Source: Falciphora oryzae
Taxonomy: Eukaryota > Ascomycota > Sordariomycetes > Magnaporthales > Magnaporthaceae
Assembly: GCA_000733355.1 (NCBI GenBank)
Contig: JNVV01000125.1
Coordinates: 1-12,832 of the forward strand
DNA length: 12,832 nucleotides
Direction of reading: 5' to 3'
Below the pieces are notes generated by a model, which searched no databases, was not told where the DNA came from, and saw only the letters and a program-made list of their open reading frames with translations. The translations under genes were made by a program, and so were the position numbers. Below, in pieces: positions 1 to 12,832 of this stretch (positions are counted from its first letter, which is position 1; each line of letters begins with the position of its first letter).

Positions 1-103
1 ACCCCATACAAAATAATTTTTCGGAAAATCGCTTGCGGCACCGGAAGCCCCCACGGCGGAGAACCCGCGGGATCGATGTCGGTGGGTATATGAGGGAAGC
101 GAT

Positions 104-264
104 TGTTGGCGCCCCTCAACTGCAATACAAGCCTATTCACCCCACTAAGCTTGGGGCCCCGACAGCGCTATTTATAGCGCCTGTCAGGGCCCAATCCAAC
201 TAACCGAGACCCTGCTGGCCACTGTGACTGCGCTGCAAATCCCCGATTTGACCTCCCAATATCA
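104..264. repeat. LTR-like terminal sequence of a further element (uncertain)
   Basis: This GC-rich block abuts the AT-rich copia RNase H, whose homology stops near 265. Read on the minus strand it starts TGATATTGGG and ends GGCGCCAACA, so it has TG...CA ends, and it contains TATAAATAG. Read on the plus strand it starts TGTTGGCGCC just after a short purine run (GAGGGAAG, 92-99). Both readings suit an LTR whose internal region continues left out of the window. The flanking pentamers (GCGAT at 99-103, AATAA at 265-269) do not match, so a solo LTR with a target duplication is not supported. Bases 1-103 show nothing I recognise. The right boundary is approximate. Confidence 0.35.
151..194. repeat. 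Imperfect 44-bp palindrome with TATA-like centre
   Basis: The left arm TTGGGGCCCCGACAGCGCTA (151-170) and right arm TAGCGCCTGTCAGGGCCCAA (175-194) are complementary apart from a C/T position and single-base indels. They are separated by TTTA. The centre reads CTATTTATAG on the plus strand and CTATAAATAG on the minus strand, so a TATA-like box lies at the axis. The palindrome is inside the LTR-like block. It may be a promoter element or a hairpin in the transcript. Confidence 0.7.
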
Positions 265-497
265 ATAATAACGTAGCTTTTTAAAAAGTGCTTTGTTTTG
301 GGGTCGTTTGCAAAGGAAAAATCTCCCGCAATTTTTAAGTGCTTAGTTTTTCGGCTCCGACCATACTTAATATTCAGGAACCTCGTTCCGTGCAGGTATT
401 TAATCGTTTGGTTTGCGGCTTTATAATACGCAGGCGAGGGGTTGGTTAGGTATTTGGAAAGCGCTGTAGTTGCGTGCGTAACGTCGGGTTTAACCAT
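265..497 (-). pseudogene. Copia RT C-terminus / RNase H fragment
   Basis: From the methionine at 497 the minus frame shows the end of the copia RT and the start of RNase H: an MVKPDVTHA segment, then NPSPAYYKAANQTIKYL, a YGRSRKTKHLKIAGD stretch and SFANDPKTK. These match the usual order of the family (R-PD-A, NP...H...A...YL-GT, L-ASD-SFAD). Homology ends near 'KSYVI', about 265, just where the GC-rich LTR-like block begins. The remaining RNase H, including the Ser/Thr-rich STTEAE region, is absent. The frame is the same as that of the RT to its right, separated only by stop codons near 500-533. Confidence 0.7.
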
Positions 498-1560
498 AAT
501 AGCTGTATAAAGTATCGACCTTACTTTTTCCTAAAAAATTAGTATTTTTTGCGTAGTAGCCGTGCTTAAATGCTTCGTAAGCTTTTTAACGGGGAGCGGG
601 ATGCTTAGGGAAATTGCTTTATTATTAAGGTTAAAGCGGTAGGCGATTTTTTTAATATAGGAGTTATGCAATAGGGTAACTGTACGGTCCTTTTTATTCC
701 TAACGATCCTTATGCCTAAAAACCACTCCAGTAATCCTTTTCGCATTTCGTATTTGTCGCGGAAACCTTCCAAAACGCGTTGTGCTTTGCCCGTATGCTT
801 TTTACAGTAAAAAAGCACGATATCGTCGATATAAAAAAGCAGGAACATTTAGCGCGTTTCGTTTATAAATAGGCAGGGCTCGTTTGCAGCCGCTTTTAAG
901 CCAAACTCCCTAAGGGTTGCTACTAACTTTCGATACCAAAGTAAAGGAAAGTTTCGCATTCCGTAAAGGGCTTTTCGAAGGCGTGCTACGTAGTTTGGCT
1001 TTGTAAAGCCAGGTGGAAGGTTAACGTAAATTGGTTCGTGGTTTGTACCGAGCTTTACGTATAGGAACGCGTTGTTTACGTCCATTTGGTGCGCTTCCAA
1101 ATTAAAAAAAGCTATAATCGCCATTATGATCTGGAACGTTCGAGCAGCGAGCGTTGCGGCATAGGTGTTTTATAGCGAGTTAACCGGTTGTTAGTTACCC
1201 CTAACCACTGCCTTCGCTTTAAATTTTTCAAGGTATCCGTTTTCGTTAAATTTATAGGCAAATACCCATTTAATATCGAGCGCTTTATTAAAGGCTTTAG
1301 AACGTGGTAGCTTAGCTCAAATGCCTTTTTTTATAAACCCCGTCATTTTTGCCAAAGCGGCTTTTTTGAACTAGGGTCCTAACGGGTGCTTATTAAGGTT
1401 TTTTTAGGATTTGGGGACGCTTTATAAAGCATCCCGGTGTATTTTTTTACCTATTTGGTACTTAAGCCTGTTTGCCGTTTTTAAGGTTATGGCCGTAACG
1501 ACCTCGTAAAAGGGACGGTGGCTTTCGAAGCTTTTTGTTATCGCTTTTTAATGATTAAGC
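498..1560 (-). pseudogene. Copia reverse transcriptase, stop-riddled
   Basis: One minus-strand frame runs through the RT fingers and palm. It shows KWVFAYKF near 1270, then QMDVNNAFL, IYVNLPPGF, RLRKALYGMR and LLWYRKL in 849-1124. A TAA at 849-851 follows, then the catalytic FYIDDIVLF (the YxDD box) just downstream, and EWFLGIRIV near 720. Pieces 849-1124 and 531-848 share a frame and are separated by that single stop. More stops lie at 531-533 and upstream of 1124. The N-terminal part near 1500-1560 (SHRPFYE) is faint. The catalytic Asp pair is intact, but the number of stops makes this a pseudogene. Confidence 0.85.
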
Positions 1561-2560
1561 AAATACGTGCAAAAAAAGTCGTCCTACCGCTATTTAAGTG
1601 GTTTCCTTTTAAAGGGTTGATTTGTTGGCTTTTTGCTTTGCAACGTGGCGAACACGTAGTTAATAAGGTTCCTTTGCTAATTGGCCTTCCTTTTTAGGGA
1701 TCGTTTTTTTTAGCCTTTGCCTTTTTGCCGCCCTTAAGTTTTTGGCAAACTGTTAAGCGGTTGGTATTTGAGGAGCAGGTGGTGCTTGCGCCGGTGTTTG
1801 TAAAACATTCGCTAATTGTTGCGGCGTAAATGAAAGGGGCCGTTGTTGATTTTTTTAATTAGTAGTTAATCGGTTTTAATTATAATAATGTTTCAGATTT
1901 CCGGGTTTTCGTTAGGTTTCGGAATATTTGGTTGGTGTTTCCGCGTATCCGAGTAACGTGCGGGAAAGCGCGCTATAGGAAGCGAGCGTTAACGCCCTCT
2001 TTGCGGTTTATTTTCGTTACCCCTTAGGTTGGTAGGGCCACCCCTTACCTTATTAGGGCTGCTATCGGAGTCGCTATCCGGTTCCTAACCGCGCACCGGC
2101 TTTTTTGCTTGGCTGCTTTTTAAAGCATTTGGAATCGGGATTTTTTACGCGGTTTAACGTCGCACGTTTACGGCGTTTTCCGCGTTTTTTTAGGCCAGTT
2201 TTACAATTTGCTTTTTAGGAGGTTGGTCGTTAACGATCTTTTTTAGCGCCCGCACCCCCGAATTTTAACCCGGATATTCGGTTACTGTAATGGGTGCTTC
2301 CGGAATTTCTGGCGTTAAAAATTCGAATGCATTTGCAAGTTCTTTTCGGAATTGAAAAGGTTTTTCCTGCTTATTTATTGCCAAAAGCATATCGTATATT
2401 TCTTAGGCGATAAAAGGCTCCTTTTCCAGCCTTAAAAAAAAGGTTCTTTTATCGAAACGCACGTCGCGGGATACTATAATACGTGCTTTGTTTGGTATTT
2501 AAATCTTGTAAATATGCGAGGCTTTGTAGCCTATTAGGTATCCGATATGCCCACGCGGTT
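1561..2560 (-). pseudogene. Copia linker between integrase and RT, heavily decayed
   Basis: This 1-kb stretch has no open frame of note on either strand. On the minus strand it can be read as the poorly conserved region between copia integrase and RT, with many stops. Recognisable scraps are VSRDVRFDKRTFF near 2450, which is the usual end of the integrase/start of linker motif, and EKEPFIA just downstream. Base composition is AT-rich like the rest of the copia. I see no other gene, RNA or repeat here. Confidence 0.5.
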
Positions 2561-2721
2561 ATATTTTAAATTCAGTGCGTTTGTTATTTTTAGCTTTTTC
2601 CCGGTTAAGCACGTAAGCTCGGCAGCCGTAAGTATAAACCCCGTCCCAATTCGGGCGCAAATCCGTTTTTAGCCCCTTAATAAGCTCCGGGGTATAGTAA
2701 CGGAAATACCCTTTGAACTAG

Positions 2722-2726
2722 GAAAG
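2722..2726. repeat. Target-site duplication GAAAG (left copy)
   Basis: GAAAG immediately precedes the 141-bp TG...CA element and is repeated at 2868-2872 immediately after it. Confidence 0.7.
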
Positions 2727-2867
2727 TGTGACGAGCGTGGCGTACAACCCCGCACGCACCGTCCTGGCACCTTCATAAGTCAGCTTCAGTGACTGTGCAG
2801 ACAGTCCTGAATCGTACCCTTTTGTGGGTGTGTAGTGCATTGGGAGTGACTTATGCCGATCGTTACA
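2727..2867. mobile_element. 141-bp TG...CA insertion, probable solo LTR
   Basis: The insert starts TGTGACGAGCG and ends CGATCGTTACA. These ends are inverted copies matching at 9 of 11 positions. It is flanked by the 5-bp direct repeats GAAAG (2722-2726 and 2868-2872). TG...CA ends with a 5-bp duplication are the signature of LTR retroelement integration. It interrupts the copia integrase frame, and precise removal restores that frame, so the boundaries are well supported. It is less AT-rich than its host copia, suggesting later arrival. It has no ORF of its own. It could instead be a very short TRIM/SMART-like element or a MITE. Its strand cannot be fixed. Confidence 0.75.
2774..2855. repeat. 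Internal inverted repeats of the 141-bp element
   Basis: CATAAGTCA (2774-2782) is the exact reverse complement of TGACTTATG (2847-2855). Inside lies a second perfect inverted repeat, GACTGT (2791-2796) and ACAGTC (2801-2806), around GCAG. They would let the short element fold as a hairpin. Confidence 0.75.
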
Positions 2868-2872
2868 GAAAG
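2868..2872. repeat. Target-site duplication GAAAG (right copy)
   Basis: GAAAG follows the final CA of the small insertion and matches 2722-2726. The copia integrase frame resumes from here. Confidence 0.7.
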
Positions 2873-3493
2873 TATGGCTTCGTTAGGCGAGCGCATCCCT
2901 TTCGAAGGCGAAGGGCTTATATTTTTAAGCCAAATGGCTGCGTAAACGGTTTCCGGCCAAAGCTTTTTAGGAAGGTTGGCGCTTTGCCGCATACGTATCG
3001 AACGAATAATAACGTCCTGTCCTGCGCGTTTTATTTTGCTATTAGGTTTATAAGTATCCAACGGTGGGTTTTCCAGCTCGATATTTATGGATTTACACCA
3101 CTTTTAGTACCATGTTTTCCCTTTATGCGCGATCAGGGTTAGCTCGTTGTTATACCGGAAAATAGCGACTTTTAAACCGTACTAACGGGCGACCCAAGCT
3201 TCCCAATTAATTAGCAAAAGCGTAAGTTTATTAGCACTTTTGCCGGATATCGTATACCTTTAAAATTTGCCATTAAAGTCGTTTTTTAGTAGTAAAAGGA
3301 CCTTTTGTTTATTTCCGCTGGATGGAAAATGGAATAGGTCTAACCAAACCTTCCAAAATGGCCTGGGGGCCGGGTCCATTTTGCGTCGAAAAATAAGCGC
3401 TTTAGCATACGTTATCGCGCAATCCTCGCATTCGATTTGCCGTATCCTTTTAATCCGTACATTCCGAGCGCTTTAAACCATGGCTTTAAGTGC

Positions 3494-3922
3494 TTATTGA
3501 CCTAAATGCCCATTCCGCAAGTGCCATAAATATGCCGTATCTTCCTTAGGTTTAGTGTGATCGATGTTAGGGCGCCAGGTCGGATTGGCGCGCACTCGCC
3601 GAAAGTATTCGCTGCGTATAGCCATTACGAGCTTTGGTAAGAACTGTTCGAATGCTTTTAAAGCACGATTGTAAAAGGAAAAATGCTTGTATTCGAAAAA
3701 AACAATATTGTTTTTGCGTTTTAACTGCCTAACGAAAAGGTTCGAATTTAAAGGTCCAATACGCAAAGTGCAATTTAGGCCACAAAACCAGACGCTTGTA
3801 GCCCTAAATTTCGCTTCGGAAATGATATTAACGTAAAAACTATCCATAAATGCGACGTCGTTAAACACCAGGTCCTTATCGCCGAAAAGCGATTTTTTAA
3901 AAGTGCGCTTTCCTTTGCCCAA
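3494..3922 (-). pseudogene. Copia GAG-pre-integrase domain
   Basis: This 142-codon open segment runs from GKGKRTFKKSLFGDKDL to DTAYLWHLRNGHLGQ. It ends in the LWH-R-GH-G signature of the GAG-pre-integrase domain that joins copia protease to integrase. Within it, NDVAFMDSFYVNIISEAKFR matches the usual 'V-Y-P-L--NLISV--L' stretch in position. It is the longest surviving open piece of the element and sits between the protease remnant on its right and the integrase core on its left. A stop at 3494 and one just upstream of 3922 (GT-stop-TLPILGKGK) break the polyprotein. Confidence 0.8.
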
Positions 3923-4404
3923 TATCGGGAGCGTTTAGGTACCGCATTTTACGGTTTTGTTACCGTCGTTCAGTAAAAAAGATCCTAAGTCCAGCTTATT
4001 AATGGAATTAACCAAATATATTACACCGCAATTATTTAGGAACGTGCTATACCAATGCGCGCTATGCACCGGGCTAATCGTTAAATACACCGCATTAGCG
4101 TTGCTAATGTTTTCGAAAATTGCCGCGTTAATATGGTTTAGTTTGGGCTAGTTTTGGTTGTTTTTTAAACTTTACTAGTGTTTCCCCCAATCGGAATTAG
4201 CGAAACGATTAATTCTTAGTAGGGTTTTTTTAAAGCCTTTCCATTATGGCTTTTTAAGTTCTTTTTTAATCGTTTTAACCTTTTATTCGGTAAAAGGTTT
4301 GCCGCGTATCGCAAACTTTATAAGGGCGTACTATATGGTCCAGCACCATTTTAGCTTTTATAGGTAATTTTTATAGCTAGCCGGGTAATTAACGTGGTTC
4401 ATTA
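3923..4404 (-). pseudogene. Copia gag C-terminus / aspartic protease remnant
   Basis: On the minus strand, near 4080-3930, the frame reads HWYSTFLNNCGVIYLVN, then KLDLGSFLLND and NKTVKCGT-stop-TLPILGKGK. This is where copia proteases carry their DSGAS-type catalytic loop and the following 'I-GxGT' strand. The catalytic Asp is not visible: NNCG stands at the expected place, so the site is decayed or the family is divergent. Farther right (4150-4404) the frame is riddled with stops and has only scraps rich in Lys, such as KKELKKP. It ends abruptly at 4404 where the Fot1/pogo element begins. Confidence 0.55.
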
Positions 4405-4434
4405 GTGAGTGGCGCACATCAGCGAGTGGCGCAC
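4405..4434. repeat. Tandem subterminal repeats of the DNA transposon
   Basis: GTGAGTGGCGCAC (4405-4417) and GCGAGTGGCGCAC (4422-4434) share GAGTGGCGCAC, spaced 17 bp apart. Repeated motifs at the ends of Fot1/pogo elements are common and may bind the transposase. They sit next to a TA dinucleotide, the expected target. Confidence 0.6.
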
Positions 4435-4537
4435 CCAAACTCGACCATTTAACAATCGACGCGCATACTAACCCAATAACGCTAGGAATCCATTCAAACT
4501 ACTCAAAACTATATACATCAAACATTTCTACTTCTTC

Positions 4538-5156
4538 CTAACAGGTGCGCGCATTGTGTCCGGTTTTGCCGCAGGTGCCACATCGCCGACGAGTCGTCGT
4601 CGCCCTCCTTTTTTAACCCCCATGGTCGCGCATTTTTTGCTATAGCTATCCATCCAGCTCCTGCTGGTCCAAAACATCTCGTACCTCGTTGATAGTAAGT
4701 AACCCTCCAAATCGAACACGTGTTTTTTTAGCCCTCCGGCGTTTGCTTAGTGCTTCGTTCGCCTTTCGTAGCCTGGAGCACTCTTCTTTTAAAAGGTTAA
4801 TTTAATGCATAATTGCTTTGGCCCTTTTCGCAAACTAGTCCACAACCGCTAGCATGGATGTTGGAAAACTGCTTTAGTAATTAGAAATTCGAATTTTAAT
4901 ATGTTCGGATTGCGAAATTGCTTCCCTGGCTGTCCGGGGCGTTTTGGAAGTCCAAAGTTCGGGATCGTTCAAAAGCGTCCTTAGGGGGGTTGGAGTCCGT
5001 AACTTTACATCCAGCTTTTCCAAAACCGAATCCGGATTAAAAGGAGTAAGGCTAGCCCTTCGGAAGCCTTCTTAAATGTTTTCCTTAGTTATAAAAGCAA
5101 AGAATGCCGCTTTAAACGCTAAAAGGAACTCGACTTTAGTTACGTAATTAACGTGC
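4538..5156 (-). pseudogene. Fot1/pogo-like transposase C-terminal fragment
   Basis: One minus-strand frame starts at the LTR junction with HVNYVTKVEFLLAFKAAF, then FNPDSVLEKLDVKLRTPTP, WTSKTPRTAREA, RLRKANEALSKRRRAKK and ends RRCGTCGKTGHNARTC. This is the order of fungal Fot1/pogo transposases after the DDE catalytic core: the ITK--FL-AF-AAF linker, the N-P--VL--L-V-LRTPTP segment, a Lys/Arg-rich coiled coil and a C-terminal CCHC knuckle (C-x2-C-x4-H-x4-C, 4541-4585). The frame holds about nine TAA/TAG codons. Catalytic residues are not in the window, being on the far side of the gypsy insertion. Confidence 0.8.
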
Positions 5157-5188
5157 TGTTAGAGGGCTGGATCCCATTGGCTCAGCCA

Positions 5189-5248
5189 CGGGCTCGTGCC
5201 CGAGGCCTGCGCCTTTGGGTCCGCGCCACAACGCTCGGGCCCCCGAGC
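5189..5248 (+). promoter_or_regulatory. Palindromes upstream of the LTR TATA box
   Basis: CGGGC-TCGT-GCCCG (5189-5202) and GCTCGGG-CC-CCCGAGC (5233-5248) are perfect inverted repeats. The second ends two bases before the TATA box. Such symmetrical GC motifs are plausible binding sites for dimeric zinc-cluster regulators. That role is inference. The same sites are present in the 3' LTR. Confidence 0.45.
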
Positions 5249-5250
5249 TG

Positions 5251-5257
5251 TATATAG
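5251..5257 (+). promoter_or_regulatory. LTR TATA box
   Basis: TATATAG is the only TATA-like motif in the LTR. It lies about 50 bases before the segment (5305-5316) that would be the RNA 5' end if the element primes on itself. The motif also reads TATATA on the minus strand. Confidence 0.6.
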
Positions 5258-5308
5258 CGGATTCCGCGCGTGGCCCTGCGGAGCAGGCCACCCTCCCCTT
5301 TACCCCTC

Positions 5309-5377
5309 GTAGTTCGACAATACAACCAAGTCCCTACAAGCGCGCCAACGTTGTAGGACCCTTACAATACGAACTAC
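5309..5377 (+). other. Putative self-primer and primer-binding site
   Basis: GTAGTTCG (5309-5316, in the LTR) is the exact reverse complement of CGAACTAC (5370-5377), which begins three bases after the likely LTR end CTTACA. CCTC (5305-5308) could add pairs with GAGG (5386-5389) across a bulge. A TGG-starting tRNA primer site is absent after the LTR. Tf1 of fission yeast, a chromovirus, folds the first 11 nt of its RNA onto a primer site next to the LTR. The position downstream of the TATA box fits the same scheme. The pairing is short, so this remains an inference. Confidence 0.5.
5333..5357 (+). repeat. U5 hairpin in the LTR
   Basis: CCTACAA (5333-5339) and TTGTAGG (5351-5357) form a perfect 7-bp stem around an 11-base loop near the LTR end, between the two halves of the putative self-priming duplex. 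It is repeated in the 3' LTR at 12796-12820. Confidence 0.6.
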
Positions 5378-5397
5378 CAAATCACGAGGAACACAAG

Positions 5398-5415
5398 CCG
5401 CAAGTAGGCTTGCGG
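5398..5415 (+). promoter_or_regulatory. Hairpin abutting the gag start codon
   Basis: CCGCAAG (5398-5404) and CTTGCGG (5409-5415) pair perfectly around TAGG, and the stem ends on the base before the gag ATG. An alternative, exclusive stem is AAGCC (5395-5399) with GGCTT (5407-5411). It might slow initiation or take part in RNA packaging or dimerisation. Function is not known. Confidence 0.5.
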
Positions 5416-6978
5416 ATGTCGCAGCCGCAGCCTCCCCAGCCAGGAAAAACATTCACGGTCCCTGAAGGTAGCTCCTCAGAAGACTCGGATTCCGCATCTG
5501 AGCTAGGGGTTAGCGCCTTCGAGGGTAGTGCGTTACAACAGCTTCTAAGGCTAGGCACCGAGGAAGAGGAAGAGGAAGGGCCCATCCCTAAAAAAGTGGA
5601 ATTCGTTCCATCAGAGGATAGCGGCCCAGAGGACGAGGCCGAGGACGGGGTAGCACCCCCAAGCAAAGAAGAGGAAGCACCGGGACCTGCGGGTTCCGCG
5701 TCACAAAAGGAGGAATCAACAGATTCAAAAGAAGAGGGAAGCGAGGCCCGGATGGCTGATAACCACGCCATGGACGAGGCACCCGCACAGCAGACGACGG
5801 CCTCTCAGGGGATCACCGAAACGGCACAGAAGCTTCGAGCGAGAGAGGAACTTAAGCAGCTGATCAAAGAGGCGCTATCCGCCGAACATCAAGCGGCCGG
5901 AAGAGAGACCTACCTATTGGAGGTTAAGAAGGATGGCGGCGCGGTACGGTCGAAGGACTACAAAGAAAGGGCGACGCCGTGGCCCACCTGGGACGGTGCG
6001 CAATCCACCTTTCACGCCTACATGAAGGAAATGATCTTCAAGTACAACCTTAACCGGGAGTTGGGCATGCTAGGGCCCAACCACAAAGTTTGGCTGGAGA
6101 TTTATCAAACGCTTCCCCAAAGGCGGAAAAAGCAGGTGGAACACTTCTGGGAATCTGGAGGCCCCGGTCAGGAGTGCGACCCGACCACCTTTTTGGAAAA
6201 ACTTCGCTCTACCTTTGGGACCGCACAGGACAAGGCACAAGCGATACTACAAATGCGGGACCTCAAACAAAAGGAGGGGCAAACATTCAGCGAATTCGCC
6301 CCTATTTTCGAGGACGTGTTGGGAAGGGCCGGCGGAAGCAGCTGGCCAGACGAGGCAAAGCTCGCATACCTAAAGGGATGCCTTAATCGCAGCTTTTCCG
6401 ACGCCTTAGCGGTGGTTAAGCTACCCGACGATTTCCAATCCCATTTGGCGGAGCTCCATAGTATTACAGTTAATTGGGAGCGCACGCAGCAGTTCGCAAA
6501 ACTGCGCAAGGAGCGACAGAAGAAGCGGAAGGGAAAAGGGAACAACGAAAGGGGGGAGGGCCAGAAACCCCAATTTCAAACCCACTCCAACCCCGCTCGA
6601 GGCCCCGCGTCCGCAGCTGCGGATATCGCCAATGGAGATGCGCGCCGAGACTCCGATGGGGATATGATTATAAGCTCCACCCGCTTTACCCGCGGACGGG
6701 GGAATAGGGGCGGGACACGCGGAACGCGAGGAGGTGCGCCCGGCAAAGGGTTTTTACGGGGCCGAGGAGGCTCCTCCTCAGCCGGCGCCCGCAAAGCGCA
6801 GTGGGTTTCCCAAAAGGAACGCGAGCGCCGCCAAGAGTCGGGCCGCTGCTTAAAGTGCGGTGCAGGTAACCACTATGTGGGAAGCTGCCCGTATTTACCG
6901 GCCACCCGGCCCCGTAGCGGCGAAAGCGATGCCGCGATCCGAAAAATGGGGACGGCCGAAACGGAGTACCCCCCATAG
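5416..6978 (+). CDS. Gag polyprotein of the chromovirus
   Basis: Gag forms the virus-like particle and packages the element RNA. The ATG at 5416 (MSQPQPPQPGK) is the first ATG after the presumed RNA start. The frame is open further upstream only through the LTR. The 520-residue product has an acidic Ser/Glu-rich N-terminal third, then a retrotransposon gag/capsid-like region (about residues 190-360: WPTWDGAQSTFHAYM, FLEKLRSTFG, LKQKEGQTFSEFAPIFEDV, LAYLKGCLNRSF). Next come a Lys/Arg-rich segment, an RGG-type stretch (RGRGNRGGTRGTRGG) and one CCHC knuckle (C-x2-C-x4-H-x4-C, 6847-6888). It ends at TAG 6976-6978. The frame continues open to TAA 7033-7035, so the TAG may be a mutated Trp codon and the ancestral end may be 7035. 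Confidence 0.9.
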   Translation: MSQPQPPQPGKTFTVPEGSSSEDSDSASELGVSAFEGSALQQLLRLGTEEEEEEGPIPKKVEFVPSEDSGPEDEAEDGVAPPSKEEEAPGPAGSASQKEESTDSKEEGSEARMADNHAMDEAPAQQTTASQGITETAQKLRAREELKQLIKEALSAEHQAAGRETYLLEVKKDGGAVRSKDYKERATPWPTWDGAQSTFHAYMKEMIFKYNLNRELGMLGPNHKVWLEIYQTLPQRRKKQVEHFWESGGPGQECDPTTFLEKLRSTFGTAQDKAQAILQMRDLKQKEGQTFSEFAPIFEDVLGRAGGSSWPDEAKLAYLKGCLNRSFSDALAVVKLPDDFQSHLAELHSITVNWERTQQFAKLRKERQKKRKGKGNNERGEGQKPQFQTHSNPARGPASAAADIANGDARRDSDGDMIISSTRFTRGRGNRGGTRGTRGGAPGKGFLRGRGGSSSAGARKAQWVSQKERERRQESGRCLKCGAGNHYVGSCPYLPATRPRSGESDAAIRKMGTAETEYPP

Positions 6979-7022
6979 CTCGAAGGAAAAGACGACCCAG
7001 CGGAATCCTTTGCCCAAAAGGA

Positions 7023-7062
7023 GGGAAAAGAGTAACCCCGGAGCAAAGTCGTGCCCCGGGGT
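7023..7062 (+). promoter_or_regulatory. Candidate -1 ribosomal frameshift signal, gag to pol
   Basis: The heptamer G GGA AAA (7023-7029) is in the gag frame in the canonical X XXY YYZ phase, one codon before the TAA at 7033-7035. After a 5-base spacer comes a perfect 7-bp stem, ACCCCGG (7035-7041) with CCGGGGT (7056-7062). It can extend by two more pairs inside a 14-base loop. A -1 slip moves ribosomes from the gag frame exactly into the pol frame. In this copy gag stops earlier at 6976, and pol has a TAA at 7086, so the signal is probably not used now. Confidence 0.6.
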
Positions 7063-7088
7063 CGGCAGAGCTCCAACAGCTCCCATAA

Positions 7089-7400
7089 GTGCGGATAAAA
7101 GTACAGGAGACGTATTCAACATACATTGCAGCGATAATCAATGGTACAAAATTGTTCGACGCATTGGTGGACGAGGGTTGTAAGTGTTACGCAGCTATAA
7201 ATAAAGAAGCCGCAGCCGAGTCTGAGCTGCCGGTGTACCGCATCCAACCCAGGAGGTTGAAAAAGGCTACGACGGGGAAAAGGGAGGTTATCCGCGAAAT
7301 CACAACCTTCACCCTCGAAACGGGAGCCGGTATTAAGGAAAGGGTACACGCATATATAGTGCCGGGCCTTACACAACCCCTAATACTAGGGAAGCCATAG
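7089..7400 (+). pseudogene. Pol: aspartic protease domain
   Basis: The segment has the retroviral-type protease outline: a beta-strand YIAAIINGTKLFDALVDEG, then YIVPGLTQPLILGKP, the usual end of the fold (the 'ILG-PWL' motif). It would cleave Gag-Pol. The catalytic triplet is D-E-G (7170-7178) where the family has D-S-G or D-T-G. The Asp is kept but the second residue is not, so activity is doubtful. The frame stops at TAG 7398-7400, exactly where Trp is expected, and continues in frame beyond. Confidence 0.75.
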
Positions 7401-7826
7401 CTTATACGCCATCAAACCGCTTCGGTGCCGCATATGTCCAAAATTTGGATCGGTACCACGCGTTCCTAGGTGCGGCATCTGCTGCCCGAAAAGCGCCTAA
7501 AGAGGAAAAAGGCCAACGCCAACGTAGCCGAAGTTCTAGTGGCAACCTTTCGCCGTCATTACGAAACAATAGCTACGACAAACGGGGAACCCGCTGCTCG
7601 GAACGCTATTTTCGCAGCATCCATAGCGGATATCGAAAGGGCCTTGGAGAAAAAAGTCCCTAAAACGGAAGCTCAATTGCGGAAGCTAATCCCGCCGGAA
7701 TTCCATAACCTCCTTCCGCTATTCCTAAAAAAGGAAGCCGAAAAGCTAAACCCACACAAGCCCGGCATCGACCACGAAATCAAAATCAAAAAGGACGCTA
7801 ATGGGATAAAGTATCCCCTTCCCTAA
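7401..7826 (+). pseudogene. Pol: protease-RT connector
   Basis: The frame continues from the protease through a TAG at 7467-7469 into a Lys/Arg-rich linker. It then reaches IPPEFHNLLPLFLKKEAEKL and KPGIDHEIKIKKDANG. The latter matches the conserved lead-in to gypsy RTs ('LP-H---DH-I-L-----P'). It ends at TAA 7824-7826, directly before GPLYSMSREEL. Relatives have Trp, Tyr or Phe before GPLY, so the stop lies within the RT start rather than at a real protein end. Confidence 0.75.
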
Positions 7827-8489
7827 GGACCGCTTTACAGCATGTCGAGGGAGGAACTCCTAATGTTAAAAAAAACCCTAAGGGACCTCCTGGACCGGGG
7901 GTTTATTAAAGCTAGCAATTCGCCAACGGGAGCCCCCATCCTGTTCGTGCGGAAACCGGGAGGAGGGCTGCGCTTTTGCTGCGACTATCGGGGATTAAAC
8001 GCCATCTCGGAAGCAGACCGATACCCCCTTCCACTAATTCCGGACACTCTCCGCAACCTGGCAAGCGCCGAGTGGCTTACCAAAGTGGACGTGGTGGCGG
8101 CTTTCCACAAAATCAGGATTAAAGAGGGCCACGAATACAAGACCGCGTTCCGCACGAGGTACGGGTTATTCGAATGGACCGTCACTCCATTCGGGCTTTC
8201 CGGAGCCCCAACGACGTTCCAACGCTATATAAACACTATACTCAAAAACTTCCTAAACGAGTTTTGCTCCGCCTACCTGGACGATATCGTCGTTTATTCG
8301 CGCGGGAGTCGGCGGGACCATCTCGAAAAAGTGCGAAAGGTCCTAAAGCGCCTAAAAGCACATGGACTCCATTTGGACCCCGATAAGTCTCAATTCGCGG
8401 TAAAAAAGATCAAATACCTCGGGTTTATCGTTAAAGCAAGCGTAAGCGTAGGCCCCGACCCTGAGAAAGTGGAAACCATCCAACGGTAG
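7827..8489 (+). pseudogene. Pol: reverse transcriptase domain
   Basis: The RT copies the RNA into cDNA in the particle. All RT blocks are visible in order: GPLYSMSREEL, FIKASNSPTGAPILFVRK, LRFCCDYRGLNAI, RYPLPLI, WLTKVDVVAAFHKIRI (first catalytic Asp), AFRTRYGLFEWTVTPFGL, TTFQRYIN, YLDDIVVYS (8274 onward, Asp pair at 8280-8285) and KYLGFIV. The catalytic Asp residues are intact. Changes such as Lys after GFIV, where relatives have Glu, are G-to-A like. The frame ends at TAG 8487-8489, a usual Trp position, and runs on in frame into RNase H. Confidence 0.9.
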
Positions 8490-9047
8490 GAGGCCCCCAA
8501 ATCGACAAAAGGAGTCCGGAGCTACCTAGGATTCCTCAACTTTTATCGGATATTTATTCCCGGGTTCTCTAAAGCGGCGGCACCCCTAACCGCTCTTACA
8601 AAAAAAAGCGCCCCTTTTACATGGACGGAAAAGCATCAAACGGCATTCGATCATTTAAAGCACCTGTTCTTATCCGCAAGGGTATTAACGGAATGGGACC
8701 CCGATGCCCCGACATTCTTAGAGACAGATTGTAGCGGGTTCGCTTTGGGAAAAGCGCTATTGCAGGAGCGGAACGGAACGAAGCGGCCAATGGGATTCCA
8801 TTCCCGCAAACTAAAAAGCGCCGAAAAAAATTACCCAATCCACGACAAGGAGATGTTGGCAATCGTCGACAACTTAAAACACTAGGACGCGGAACTCCGC
8901 AGCTGCAATAGCTTTACCATCCTTACGGATCACCGGAACCTAAAGTATTTCATAAAGGTCCAGCGCCTATCGGAAAAACAAGCTCGTTAGGCAAAGGACC
9001 TGTCAAAATACAACTTTAAACTTTGGTATCGCCCCGGCAAAGAAAAT
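8490..9047 (+). pseudogene. Pol: RT thumb and RNase H domain
   Basis: The frame shows VRSYLGFLNFYRIFIPGFS (the gypsy RT connection), PFTWTEKHQTAF, then RNase H: LETDCSGFALG with Asp at 8727-8729, YPIHDKEMLAIV with Glu at 8850-8852, ILTDHRNLKYF with Asp at 8928-8930, and YRPGKENVVADALSKR with its Asp. The DEDD set appears complete. Two TAG codons (8883-8885 after LKH and 8988-8990 after QAR) fall where relatives have Trp. RNase H would degrade template RNA and, in a self-primed element, also make the primer cut. Confidence 0.85.
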
Positions 9048-10310
9048 GTGGTCGCCGACGCACTCTCAAAAAGGGAACAAAACGCCCCAAATGCGGACGA
9101 GAAATACGAAACTAGGGAAATGCAGCTGCTCCCCAAAAACACCCTCACGTGGATTCGAAGAATCCAAATCCTAAGCAACGGACCGGCCACACAGGAAGGG
9201 GAGGACCACGGAGTACCGGATGATATCCGTTGGCTCGAAGACCCGGAGTTGCAACAACAGTGGGAAAAAACAATAACGCAAAACAGCCTCTACCAATCAG
9301 TATATCGCTCGGTTAAACTCGGAAAACGGACGTTGGATCCTAGTTTGAACTTAAAGGTTCAAAGAGCGGAATGCCGCATCGATAACGAGGGCAGACTACG
9401 GTTCAAAGATAAGCTATGGGTTCCGGGAGCACCCTTCGCAACGGAAGCCGCAGTCGCAGCGGCGGGAGGGGAAAACGACCCGAGGAACGAGCTCAAAGGA
9501 AAGCTTATCCAAAAAGTCCACGACGCGTGCACTATTGGCCATCCGGGTCGAGACGGCACCCTTTACGCGGTAGCCAGGGACTTTTATTGGCCCCTGATGC
9601 ACAGGAGCGTAAAACGCTTCGTCCGCAACTGTAACGTCTGCGGCCGCTCTAAAATCTGGAAGGACCTCAAACAAAGCTTATTGCAACCTCTCCCCGTACC
9701 GGACCGTTTCCACAGGCACCTACAAATGGACTTTATAACCGACCTCCCTCTAGCGAACGGAAACACCTCCTTATAGGTAATAACCGACCGCCTATCAAAA
9801 GAAGTAATCCTTAAAGCTATGCCGTCGATAAAGGCAAAAGCCTGCGCGGACCGCTTTACAACAAGCTTCGTCCGCTATCACGGTTGGCCCTCCTCGATAA
9901 TCTCTAATAAAGGCACTAACTGGACAAGCGAGTTCTGGCAGCAGCTATGCAAGCAGCTAGAAATTAAGCAGCTTCTAAGCACCGCTTACCACCCCCAGAC
10001 AGATGGGGGTACCGAAAGATTAAACCAGGAAGTGCAAGCCGCTTTAAAAGCCTACATCCACTATACTCAAACCGATTGGGACCAGTGGCTTCCCGCAATC
10101 CAGCTTGCGCTCAACTCACGCCCGCATTCCACTATTGGCACTTCCCCCTTCTTTGCCAACCACGGCTACGAACCGCCCTCAGTTATCGCCCTAGCGGAAA
10201 CGGATCCCAAACCGACCGCAACGTCTCCTACGGCCAGAGCTAAAGCATATATAAAAAAGCTGGCTCAAATTACGGATATGTGCCAAGCGGCGATGGCAGC
10301 GGCGGCGTAA
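9048..10310 (+). pseudogene. Pol: integrase, zinc-binding and catalytic domains
   Basis: The HHCC zinc domain is intact: His at 9519 and 9540, Cys at 9630 and 9639, with the block GHPGRDGTLYAVARDFYWP between. In the catalytic core the first Asp (QMDFITDLP, 9729-9731) and the Glu (GGTERLNQE, 10014-10016) are present. The second catalytic Asp is replaced: the block reads SNKGTNWTSEFW, with AAT at 9906-9908 where relatives have SDRG. That is a one-base G-to-A change from GAT, and it should abolish strand transfer. YHPQTDG and LALNSRPHSTIG are conserved. Stops lie at TAG 9774-9776 and TAA 10308-10310. Confidence 0.9.
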
Positions 10311-10977
10311 CAGGCGGAACGGTTCGCGAACCAGAAAAGGCGCCCCGCAAAGCAGTACCGTCCTGGCGACAAAGTGTGGCTAGATTTAACCAATTTCCAA
10401 TCCAAACGTCCGAAAAAAAAGCTGGACTGGTTGCGGGCCAAAGTGACGGTAACCAAAGTGATCGGCCCCAACGTAGTAGAGGTGGAAGGCCTACCTACAG
10501 GTGCGCACAACCGGTTTAATGTGGATAAGATCAAAAAAGCCAGCTCAAATCCGGTTCCCGGACAACAGGTAGCGGACCCTCAGCCCCCAGCGGTAATAGT
10601 GGAAGGCGATAAACAGTGGGTAGTAAAGGAAATCGACGCGGCCAGAACGGTAAAAGTCGGAAAAGGGAAGCAGAAGCAGGTCCGCGTTTGGTGGGAGGGA
10701 CACATGGATCCTACGTGGGAACCGCTAGAAAGCGTATCGGATTTGGAAGCGCTGGATCGTTTCAAAGCAAAGCACGGCGATGCGCGGATTAATAATGGGA
10801 ACTACGTTAAGCAAACGGAACCGCAAATAGAAAAGAGTAAAAAGGTTCCTAAACGGAAACGCGGGAGACCACGGAAAAACAACGCCGAACCTAAAGTGGG
10901 AATCCAACTCTCGAACGTCGGAAAAAATTCAACCCAACAGCCCTCAGCTCCAAACAATAACGACGAAAACGAAGCTT
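10311..10977 (+). pseudogene. Pol: integrase C-terminus with chromodomain and AT-hook
   Basis: After the TAA at 10308 the frame reads QAERFANQKRRPAKQYRPGD and KVWLDLTNFQ, then a GPY/F-like module (KVIGPNVVEVEGLP...HNRFNVDKI). It continues with a chromodomain at about 10614-10779 (QWVVKEIDAAR, VRVWWEGHMDPTWEPLESV, LEALDRFKAKHG). Chromodomains of this class target insertion by binding modified histone H3. The Trp residues of WWEG and TWEP could form part of the aromatic cage. It is followed by KRKRGRPRK (10851-10877), an AT-hook with the GRP core, a DNA minor-groove binder. The real C-terminus is unclear because the frame stays open until 11432 opposite the antisense gene. Confidence 0.85.
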
Positions 10978-11002
10978 ATCCCGCACAAACAACGAAGGGC
11001 TT

Positions 11003-11741
11003 TCAATCGAAACCTTCGAAATCAGTTTCATTCTCATCCTCATCCCCATCCTTATCCTCATCTTCATCCTCATCACCATCCTCCTCTTCCTCCTCCTCAC
11101 TCCCATCGTCGCCCTCCTCACTCTCACTAGTGTCATCCTCACTCTGGGAATCCGCCAATTCGATAGGCCGGTCGGGGCGCGAGCCGGCGGCAGGTGCACG
11201 AACTACAGCTTCGGAAACCGGAGCCACCGACTGGGCTCCCCGGAACTGGGGGCGAGGAATGTCGGCGATATCGATCCGCACTCCAAAAGCGGCTAGAAAA
11301 GGGCGAGGAGAGGCGGATCCCAGCTCGACAAAAGGGGACCAAACAGCAGCCTGCGCGCGCCGGACACGAACAGGCGGAAGGGGCGGCGGCGGAACCATGG
11401 ACCGAATAAAGGCCTCTCGAACCGAGTTGTAAGGAGGACCGAAAGCAGGCGGAAGCAGCTGGGTGGACGCGGATGCCGACGGGAGAGGCAGGGGAGGTCC
11501 CACGTCAAGACGGCGGCGACGGGAAGGCGAGGTCTGGAGGTTAAGGCGCGCCATCTCAGGGCTGGCGAGCGTGCGCTTCCCAAAGGTCGGAATGGCGGGG
11601 GGCAGGCCACGCTGGTCGGCCTTAGCTTTGGAGTCGCGAGCCGTTTTCTCCAAAGCGGCCAAGCGAGCTTCGATCGATGCAGCGGAGGACGAGGCAGAAG
11701 GGTCGGCTGCGCGAGGAAAAAGAGAAAGCACCGCGGTGCCA
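11003..11741 (-). CDS. Last exon of the antisense gene (open)
   Basis: This 245-codon exon has no stop before TGA/TAA-type termination at 11003. It begins with SGTAVLSLFPRAADPSASSS after the acceptor and holds the coiled coil at about 11690-11615. A Pro/Arg-rich middle with a PPPPLPP run (about 11390) follows. The last 50 residues are almost wholly Asp, Glu and Ser, with a run of Glu and alternating Glu-Asp. Acidic tails of this kind occur in transcription activators and histone-binding proteins. The opposite strand shows only a Ser-rich shadow here. Composition and splice logic favour the minus strand as the coding one. Confidence 0.65.
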
Positions 11742-11802
11742 CTAACGGAAAGACCGGTTAGCAAAGGCATTAAAGGGAGCGCACAGGGAAGCGAGGACGT
11801 AC
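11742..11802 (-). other. Intron 3 of the antisense gene
   Basis: The 61-nt intron has donor GTACGT, branch TTTGCTAAC about 15 nt before the acceptor, and acceptor GTTAG. Splicing moves the cysteine-cluster frame into the long acidic-tail frame, which is otherwise unreachable. Confidence 0.75.
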
Positions 11803-12143
11803 GAAGCCACATATCCGGCGTTCTCCAGCCTCTCCAGCTATCGCTAGGCCGAAACGGCCGAGGTAAAAAGCACGCGCTTGGCCTTCTTGTCCTTGTCTCC
11901 GCTGGCGGATTGCTACTCCGCATAAGCGCGAGACACGACAGGAAGAGCGCGAGTGCACTTGCGGTTGGCCTCATGGCACTCCCAGCAGGCGGTCCGGCCC
12001 TTGCCCGTCTGGTCGTGACAGGCCGAGTCCTGACTGACGCAGCGGAAGCACGGCTCCGCGCGCGCAGCGCCACGCTGCTCTTGCGGCTCCTTCTCGTCCT
12101 CCGAGGGAGAGAAGGGATCCGGGGACGAAGGAGGGTACGGCGG

Positions 12144-12200
12144 CTGGCGCAAACTGGTTAGCTAGGGCCTCAAGTAGAACGAGGGAAAAGGAAAGCTTAC
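12144..12200 (-). other. Intron 2 of the antisense gene
   Basis: The 57-nt intron has donor GTAAGC, branch-like TAGCTAAC 13 nt before the acceptor, and acceptor GCCAG. Its length is a multiple of three and it holds an in-frame TAG, so unspliced RNA would terminate. The nearer CAG acceptor at 12154 lies only about four bases past the branch A and would break the frame. Confidence 0.65.
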
Positions 12201-12258
12201 CATATCGGCGGCGGCAAGCGGAAGATCGGGCGGGAAGAGCTTGGAGCACTGGAGGGCG

Positions 12259-12349
12259 CTGAAGTAGTAGTGAAGTTAGCGGAGGTCGCGGAGGAAGCAG
12301 GACGGGACGCGCCCGCGCCTCTGGGAACGCGGGCCTGGGAAATGCTTAC
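12259..12349 (-). other. Intron 1 of the antisense gene
   Basis: The 91-nt intron has donor GTAAGC, branch-like CCGCTAAC about 20 nt before the acceptor, and acceptor TTCAG. It joins a phase-2 exon end to an exon start that completes the codon. Confidence 0.65.
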
Positions 12350-12387
12350 GGGAACGACGGGACCTAGCGCGACGGATTGAAGCGCAT

Positions 12388-12619: not shown

Positions 12620-12832
12620 TGTTAGAGGGCTGGATCCCATTGGCTCAGCCACGGGCTCGTGCCCGAGGCCTGCGCCTTTGGGTCCGCGCCACAACGCTCG
12701 GGCCCCCGAGCTGTATATAGCGGATTCCGCGCGTGGCCCTGCGGAGCAGGCCACCCTCCCCTTTACCCCTCGTAGTTCGACAATACAACCAAGTCCCTAC
12801 AAGCGCGCCAACGTTGTAGGACCCTTACAATA
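12620..12832 (+). repeat. 3' LTR (window ends at or in it)
   Basis: It is identical to 5157-5369 in every base, including TATA box, palindromes and U5 hairpin. The window stops at the base that corresponds to the one just before the putative primer-binding site, so the outer flank and target duplication cannot be seen. Confidence 0.93.

Follow-up and report, generated by a model that had tools for sequence, protein, structure and literature searches.

The 12,832-base contig JNVV01000125.1 of the fungus Falciphora oryzae (assembly GCA_000733355.1), analysed in its entirety and called the window here, carries a Ty3/gypsy retrotransposon in which the minus strand, downstream of the integrase and upstream of the 3' long terminal repeat (LTR), reads as an antisense gene whose product has a zinc-cluster-like motif, and the evidence supports this reading. 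The predicted gene begins with an ATG at 12387 and ends with a stop codon at 11005-11003; its four exons make up 353 codons, and their phases agree across the changes of frame. Exon 1 (12350-12387) is followed by an intron of 91 nt (12259-12349, GTAAGC...CTAAC...TTCAG) and exon 2 (12201-12258), and a second intron of 57 nt (12144-12200, GTAAGC...CTAAC...GCCAG) leads to exon 3 (11917-12143), which contains the cysteine cluster; an acceptor at 12154 is also possible for this intron, but shifts the frame. The third intron as placed has 175 nt (11742-11916, GTAGCA...CTAAC...GTTAG) and precedes exon 4 (11003-11741), which is open in the window copy. An alternative donor, GTACGT at 11802, would reduce this intron to 61 nt and move the end of exon 3 to 11803. 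All three placed introns contain CTAAC. The original prediction, made from the window's sequence, had proposed this spliced minus-strand gene; the four-exon reading can be placed with its introns, while exon 1 of the window copy carries a stop and the third intron is ambiguous.

The predicted product combines three features that had also been proposed, each of which can be seen in its sequence. The cluster in exon 3 (11955-12050, minus strand) has the spacing C-x2-C-x6-C-x10-C-x2-C-x6-C, which agrees with the Zn2Cys6 pattern C-x2-C-x6-C-x5-12-C-x2-C-x6-8-C. This pattern occurs once in the three minus frames of the region and in none of 3000 dinucleotide shuffles. The corresponding Pfam family, Zn_clus (PF00172), matches at E 0.0011, but the scores, 19.4 bits for exon 3 alone and 13.1 for the whole product, are under the gathering cut-off of 21 bits. 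A short stretch at 11612-11686 resembles a coiled coil in its sequence, with a weak match to Sugarporin_N (E 0.0013, under cut-off), and the tail encoded at 11006-11149 is very acidic, with aspartate or glutamate at 31 of its 48 residues. Pfam matches to the product at E of 1 or less include no basic leucine zipper (bZIP) family. The structure model of the window exon is poor (mean predicted local distance difference test, pLDDT, 51). Relatives of the product were found neither among 5.8 billion proteins, a collection that includes fungi, nor in viral contigs, where the reverse transcriptase of the element had none either, and sequence searches of solved structures gave nothing convincing. Gal4-type proteins favour CGG...CCG pairs; the LTR holds three of these against a shuffle mean of 2.6, which is chance level.

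The gene is a regular part of its element family. Eight of the integrase matches listed fall within this family, at 66 to 100% identity against 44% for the one listed next, and beside all eight the antisense gene lies 843 bases downstream of the integrase on the opposite strand. These eight places in the genome (50 Mb, 123 contigs) comprise six complete copies and two in which a middle stretch reads N; no further copy was found at E of 0.001 or less, the only other rows being two weak ones at E 0.74 and 0.87. Long N stretches are present in L007, L008, and L071, and two of these fall within the antisense gene of the window's family. Contig C116 (genome G000) has two integrase matches of equal score in inverted orientation, at 6291-6620 (plus) and 16715-17044 (minus), perhaps an inverted duplication or an assembly artefact.

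The copies differ in a manner that limits what they can say about selection. Their alignment has 1720 columns, of which 482 are variable and 478 of those are transitions. Relative to the window, with both strands summed over seven copies, C-to-T changes number 469 at 247 CpT sites and 310 at 161 CpA sites, compared with 143 at 338 CpC and 69 at 325 CpG; the sequence bias is as expected of a process like repeat-induced point mutation (RIP). Since the copies differ almost solely by transitions of this type, commonest at CpT and CpA, the ratio of nonsynonymous to synonymous rates (dN/dS) among them, a check that had been recommended, is uninformative on selection and was rejected as a test. In the six complete copies, the 353-codon model contains no stops in one, a single stop in the window, and five to nine in each of the other four, some of which also have altered splice sites and one an altered start codon.

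Several observations qualify the antisense gene as first described. The window copy has an in-frame stop in exon 1 (12366-12364), although this is absent from five of the seven other copies. At intron 3, the donor with the best consensus, GTACGT, leaves in-frame stops, whereas GTAGCA (11916), which avoids them, is weak. The stop at 11915-11913, retained with GTACGT, is common to all six complete copies, and parallel RIP would be expected to produce only about 0.06 such sites in the whole region; GTACGT is disfavoured for this reason. Either GTAGCA is used, or the founder of the family carried the stop and the product ends past the zinc cluster, and the first option is favoured. In one copy, nine chains of at least 200 codons can be read from the ATG of the gene and eight of them lack the zinc cluster, the sole chain that retains it being the one with donor GTAGCA. 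The original prediction had considered the agreement of phases unlikely to arise by chance. A chain rule, which asks for a spliced open reading frame of 600 nt or longer containing three or more CTAAC introns, was applied to the region of one other copy. Its shuffles gave no such frame in 2000, and one of the 2000 held any chain; the longest chain of that copy itself has 1160 nt and lacks the zinc cluster, whereas the chain that bears the cluster has 353 codons. The spliced reading of that copy exceeds its shuffles; the same rule yields no chain in the window, presumably on account of the exon 1 stop, nor in the four other complete copies. In codon usage, exon 4 scores highest of the three minus frames, yet its score (-0.057) is not above that of the best plus frame (-0.053). 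The DNA here is GC-rich, with long frames on both strands, and one of these, frame f0 of the minus strand, is open over 384 codons.

A further qualification comes from pol. Past a chromodomain-like part, the last pol frame has no stop before 11430-11432 in the window and one other row (six of eight rows have an earlier stop), and this open frame covers the final 430 bases of exon 4 (11003-11432), acidic tail included. Opposite the acidic tail it encodes mostly serine, so the serine-rich sense frame may account for part of the tail as its shadow. The zinc cluster and the coiled-coil-like stretch are outside the overlap. The gene had been placed between pol and the 3' LTR; it does lie upstream of that LTR, but pol may overlap its final 430 bases. 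This overlap slightly lowers confidence in an antisense regulatory gene and raises that in a non-coding explanation.

Support from beyond the family comes from three other Ty3 families of the genome (L063, L069, and L070), each with an antisense cysteine-rich gene downstream of the integrase. In these families the position of the gene is shown relative to the integrase, on the opposite strand. Together the four families have 64 gene places; an integrase row lies within 4 kb at 38 and at none of the other 26 among the rows listed (150 of 399 integrase candidates), and at all 38 the gene is downstream of the integrase on the opposite strand. In this count, 3 of the 26 rows of one search were dropped as second rows of places already counted. 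The genes themselves differ. In L063 and its kin, the next-nearest Ty3 family, the antisense frame encodes a stretch rich in cysteines, whose spacing is not Zn2Cys6. The L069 family has a spliced-looking gene with seven cysteines in its first exon, and comparison of L069 (C3:2425600-2430600) with L073 (C42:228090-229500) gives 127 identical residues of 293 (43% protein identity), with the introns at the same places and the seven cysteines all conserved. The gene of the L070 family is a single exon that encodes a long coiled coil along with a zinc-like cluster. Neither the L063 nor the L069 class was picked up by the cysteine-pattern searches; both were recognised by eye in translations. In the 3' parts of the L067 and L068 families there was no cysteine-pattern match and no antisense cysteine gene was recognised, and L071 is mostly N. 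No homology among the antisense gene classes was found in the two comparisons made.

The L070 class allows a test of selection. It has 24 relatives at E of 0.001 or less, of which those with a name belong to Gaeumannomyces, Pyricularia, and Microdochium, and six cysteines are invariant in the 12 of these that were aligned. Transversions cannot arise by RIP and are thus usable as a measure of constraint where RIP spoils dN/dS, so they were counted by codon position in pairs about half identical in protein. For positions 1, 2, and 3, two L070 pairs gave 26, 18, and 49 (P 9e-5) and 28, 21, and 47 (P 0.001), and two shorter pairs gave 15, 12, and 22 (P 0.06) and 11, 7, and 21 (P 0.007); the pairs, having sequences in common, are not independent. 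The L070 class is under protein-level constraint. The L069 class showed no third-position excess, with 56, 61, and 71 transversions in 293 codons (by exon 22, 15, 16; 14, 19, 18; 8, 8, 12; and 12, 19, 25), compared with 35 across 208 bases of its intron stretches. The structure model of an L070-class relative reaches pLDDT 87 to 98 over the cluster and the first coiled-coil helix, and its fold matches, few and weak, include the DNA-binding domains of Leu3, Gal4, and Put3.

The element itself is a Ty3/gypsy LTR retrotransposon. Its LTRs flank gag and pol, and the order protease, reverse transcriptase, RNase H, integrase is that of Ty3/gypsy, although the gag and protease matches on which this assignment partly draws are both under their cut-offs. 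The 5' LTR (5157-5366, plus strand, repeat D1) has 210 bp with the ends TG...CA and does not differ from the 3' LTR (12620-12829, plus) at any of 210 bases. The gag frame (5416-6978, plus) is open, with a match to Retrotrans_gag at E 0.0093 and 16.6 bits. The pol frames (7089-11432, plus) are interrupted by stops, and the five stops checked are each a sense codon in at least one other copy. Strong Pfam scores were obtained for RVT_1 (6e-37), RT_RNaseH_2 (3.8e-28), and Integrase_H2C2 (6e-17), and scores under cut-off for rve (3.2e-6) and gag-asp_proteas (0.02) as well as for Chromo in the chromodomain-like part at about 10623-10769 (E 0.082; 13.3 bits, cut-off 25.1). A chromodomain at the end of pol marks chromoviruses, the group named in the original prediction, and with this match the element is a possible member. 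An AT-hook-like match (E 0.031, under cut-off) lies in the pol frame upstream of 10983-11432. The 3' LTR ends three bases short of the contig end, and these bases (12830-12832) are the same as the three directly after the 5' LTR; the contig ending here, together with the matching bases, probably reflects an assembly break at the repeat. Directly after the 5' LTR, the stretch 5367-5390 holds CGAACTAC, the complement of which, GTAGTTCG, is found within the LTR at 5309-5316, about 58 bases past TATATA at 5251. Tf1 is a self-priming element, and by analogy the pairing of CGAACTAC with GTAGTTCG is a possible arrangement of that type. Upstream of the Ty3 element, the minus strand at 168-4400 has fragments resembling a degraded Ty1/copia element, named from translation by eye, with reverse transcriptase-like stretches such as 531-848.

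The explanation that fits best, although held with slightly less than even confidence, is that the window contains a copy, damaged by mutation, of an accessory gene that a fungal Ty3/gypsy element carries in antisense, and whose product would most likely act as a nuclear dimer that binds DNA or chromatin and tunes its own element. In intact forms, a promoter within or beside the 3' LTR would drive a transcript that is spliced and encodes a protein of about 350 residues, in which a zinc-cluster-like module at the N terminus is followed by a short coiled coil and then by an acidic tail. The module would bind zinc and contact DNA, the coiled coil would serve dimerisation, and the tail, if real, could provide activation or contact with chromatin, so that a small nuclear dimer would adjust transcription or silencing of the element. 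Judged by the anatomy of the predicted protein, an element-encoded nuclear regulator is the most likely function, and control of LTR transcription or host silencing, as first suggested, may be its role. A close rival would accept the gene but give its product a part in replication, where it could help the integration complex into the nucleus, guide where integration takes place, or act as a nucleic-acid chaperone; none of the observations separates this from a regulator. Several nucleic-acid roles would be compatible with a zinc cluster plus coiled coil and, according to the passages seen of PMC7264820, the antisense product of plant Grande localises to the nucleus; the weak fold matches of the sister-class model are, however, to DNA-binding domains of transcription factors, and a replication role is considered a substantial minority possibility.

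Somewhat less probable again is that the locus acts without a protein, antisense transcription giving rise to double-stranded or small RNAs by which the element is silenced, the frame being incidental and exon 4 partly a shadow of the pol tail. The codon usage of the antisense frame, the long frames on both strands, and the pol overlap agree with this, as does the description of Botrytis Ty3 elements as sources of small RNAs in part of PMC8365987. Against it stand the cysteine spacing absent from every shuffle, the spliced chain likewise absent, the position of the zinc cluster outside the overlap, and the constraint and invariant cysteines of the sister class. Frame f0, running through exons 3 and 4 (12143-11003), could instead be the real antisense gene, with a basic, proline-rich product and no zinc cluster; its length and the eight of nine long chains that lack the cluster in one copy speak for it, but a canonical zinc spacing in another frame would then be left to chance, and cysteine-rich products are encoded downstream of the integrase in other families, which makes this improbable. 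Capture of a host gene by the element is the least probable account, and very unlikely. LTR elements can capture genes (PMC7264820, in part), but all eight places are beside the integrase with no further genome copy at E of 0.001 or less, and introns would be gone from a processed host mRNA. A broader proposal is that fungal Ty3/gypsy elements as a group encode antisense DNA-binding proteins with a zinc cluster and a coiled coil, which were acquired or evolved more than once downstream of the integrase and regulate transcription as a counterpart of retroviral antisense regulators such as HBZ; this is rather less likely than not.

The antisense genes carried by LTR retrotransposons form an established group of uncharacterised function. 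If those of fungi regularly encode zinc-cluster regulators, then their role becomes testable, as the products look expressible and could be assayed for DNA binding. Relatives are already present in annotated genomes as hypothetical proteins, and some hypothetical fungal zinc-cluster genes would then be element genes. The transversion test is also a way to measure constraint in other genomes where RIP spoils ordinary dN/dS.

Compared with known systems, the product resembles Gal4-class Zn2Cys6 proteins (PF00172) in cysteine spacing, in a coiled coil after the cluster, and in the weak fold matches of its sister class, but differs in its score under the cut-off, in its lack of basic residues between the second and third cysteines, and in being encoded by a retrotransposon. 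HBZ of human T-cell leukaemia virus type 1 (HTLV-1) is a bZIP protein of a retrovirus; the parallel drawn with it in the original prediction holds as an analogy, both being antisense with a regulator-like layout, but the Pfam scan of the product here lists no bZIP family. The plant aORF-3R set, as described in part of PMC7264820, comprises Grande gene 23, RIRE2, Retand, and PvRetro13, which are antisense, lie between pol and the 3' LTR, are kept in all or most copies, and have a proposed regulatory role; the same source places the antisense promoter of HTLV in the 3' LTR. The window's family has its gene in all or most copies too, at eight of eight integrase matches. The plant genes differ in their hosts and, in the passages concerned, in having no clear similarity to known proteins save an SMC domain in PvRetro13. 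The original prediction knew of no described equivalent with a zinc cluster in fungal Ty3/gypsy elements, and listings of the open-licence PMC literature likewise showed no account of an antisense gene there for a zinc-cluster product. Antisense genes at this position in such elements are already known from brtn. According to citing passages, brtn is an additional antisense gene in Boty-like elements of Botrytis cinerea (Zhao et al. 2011, cited in PMC7264820, PMC8365987, and PMC4227169), and an additional open reading frame of BcGypsy1 (PMC8365987); PMC4227169 and PMC5987419 mention brtn in a Boty-like element and a Monilinia transcript that resembles BRTN. PMC7264820 groups brtn with antisense frames located between pol and the 3' LTR. 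Compared by description only, brtn differs in that these passages mention no zinc cluster, and it resembles the gene described here in being antisense and in belonging to a fungal Ty3/gypsy element.
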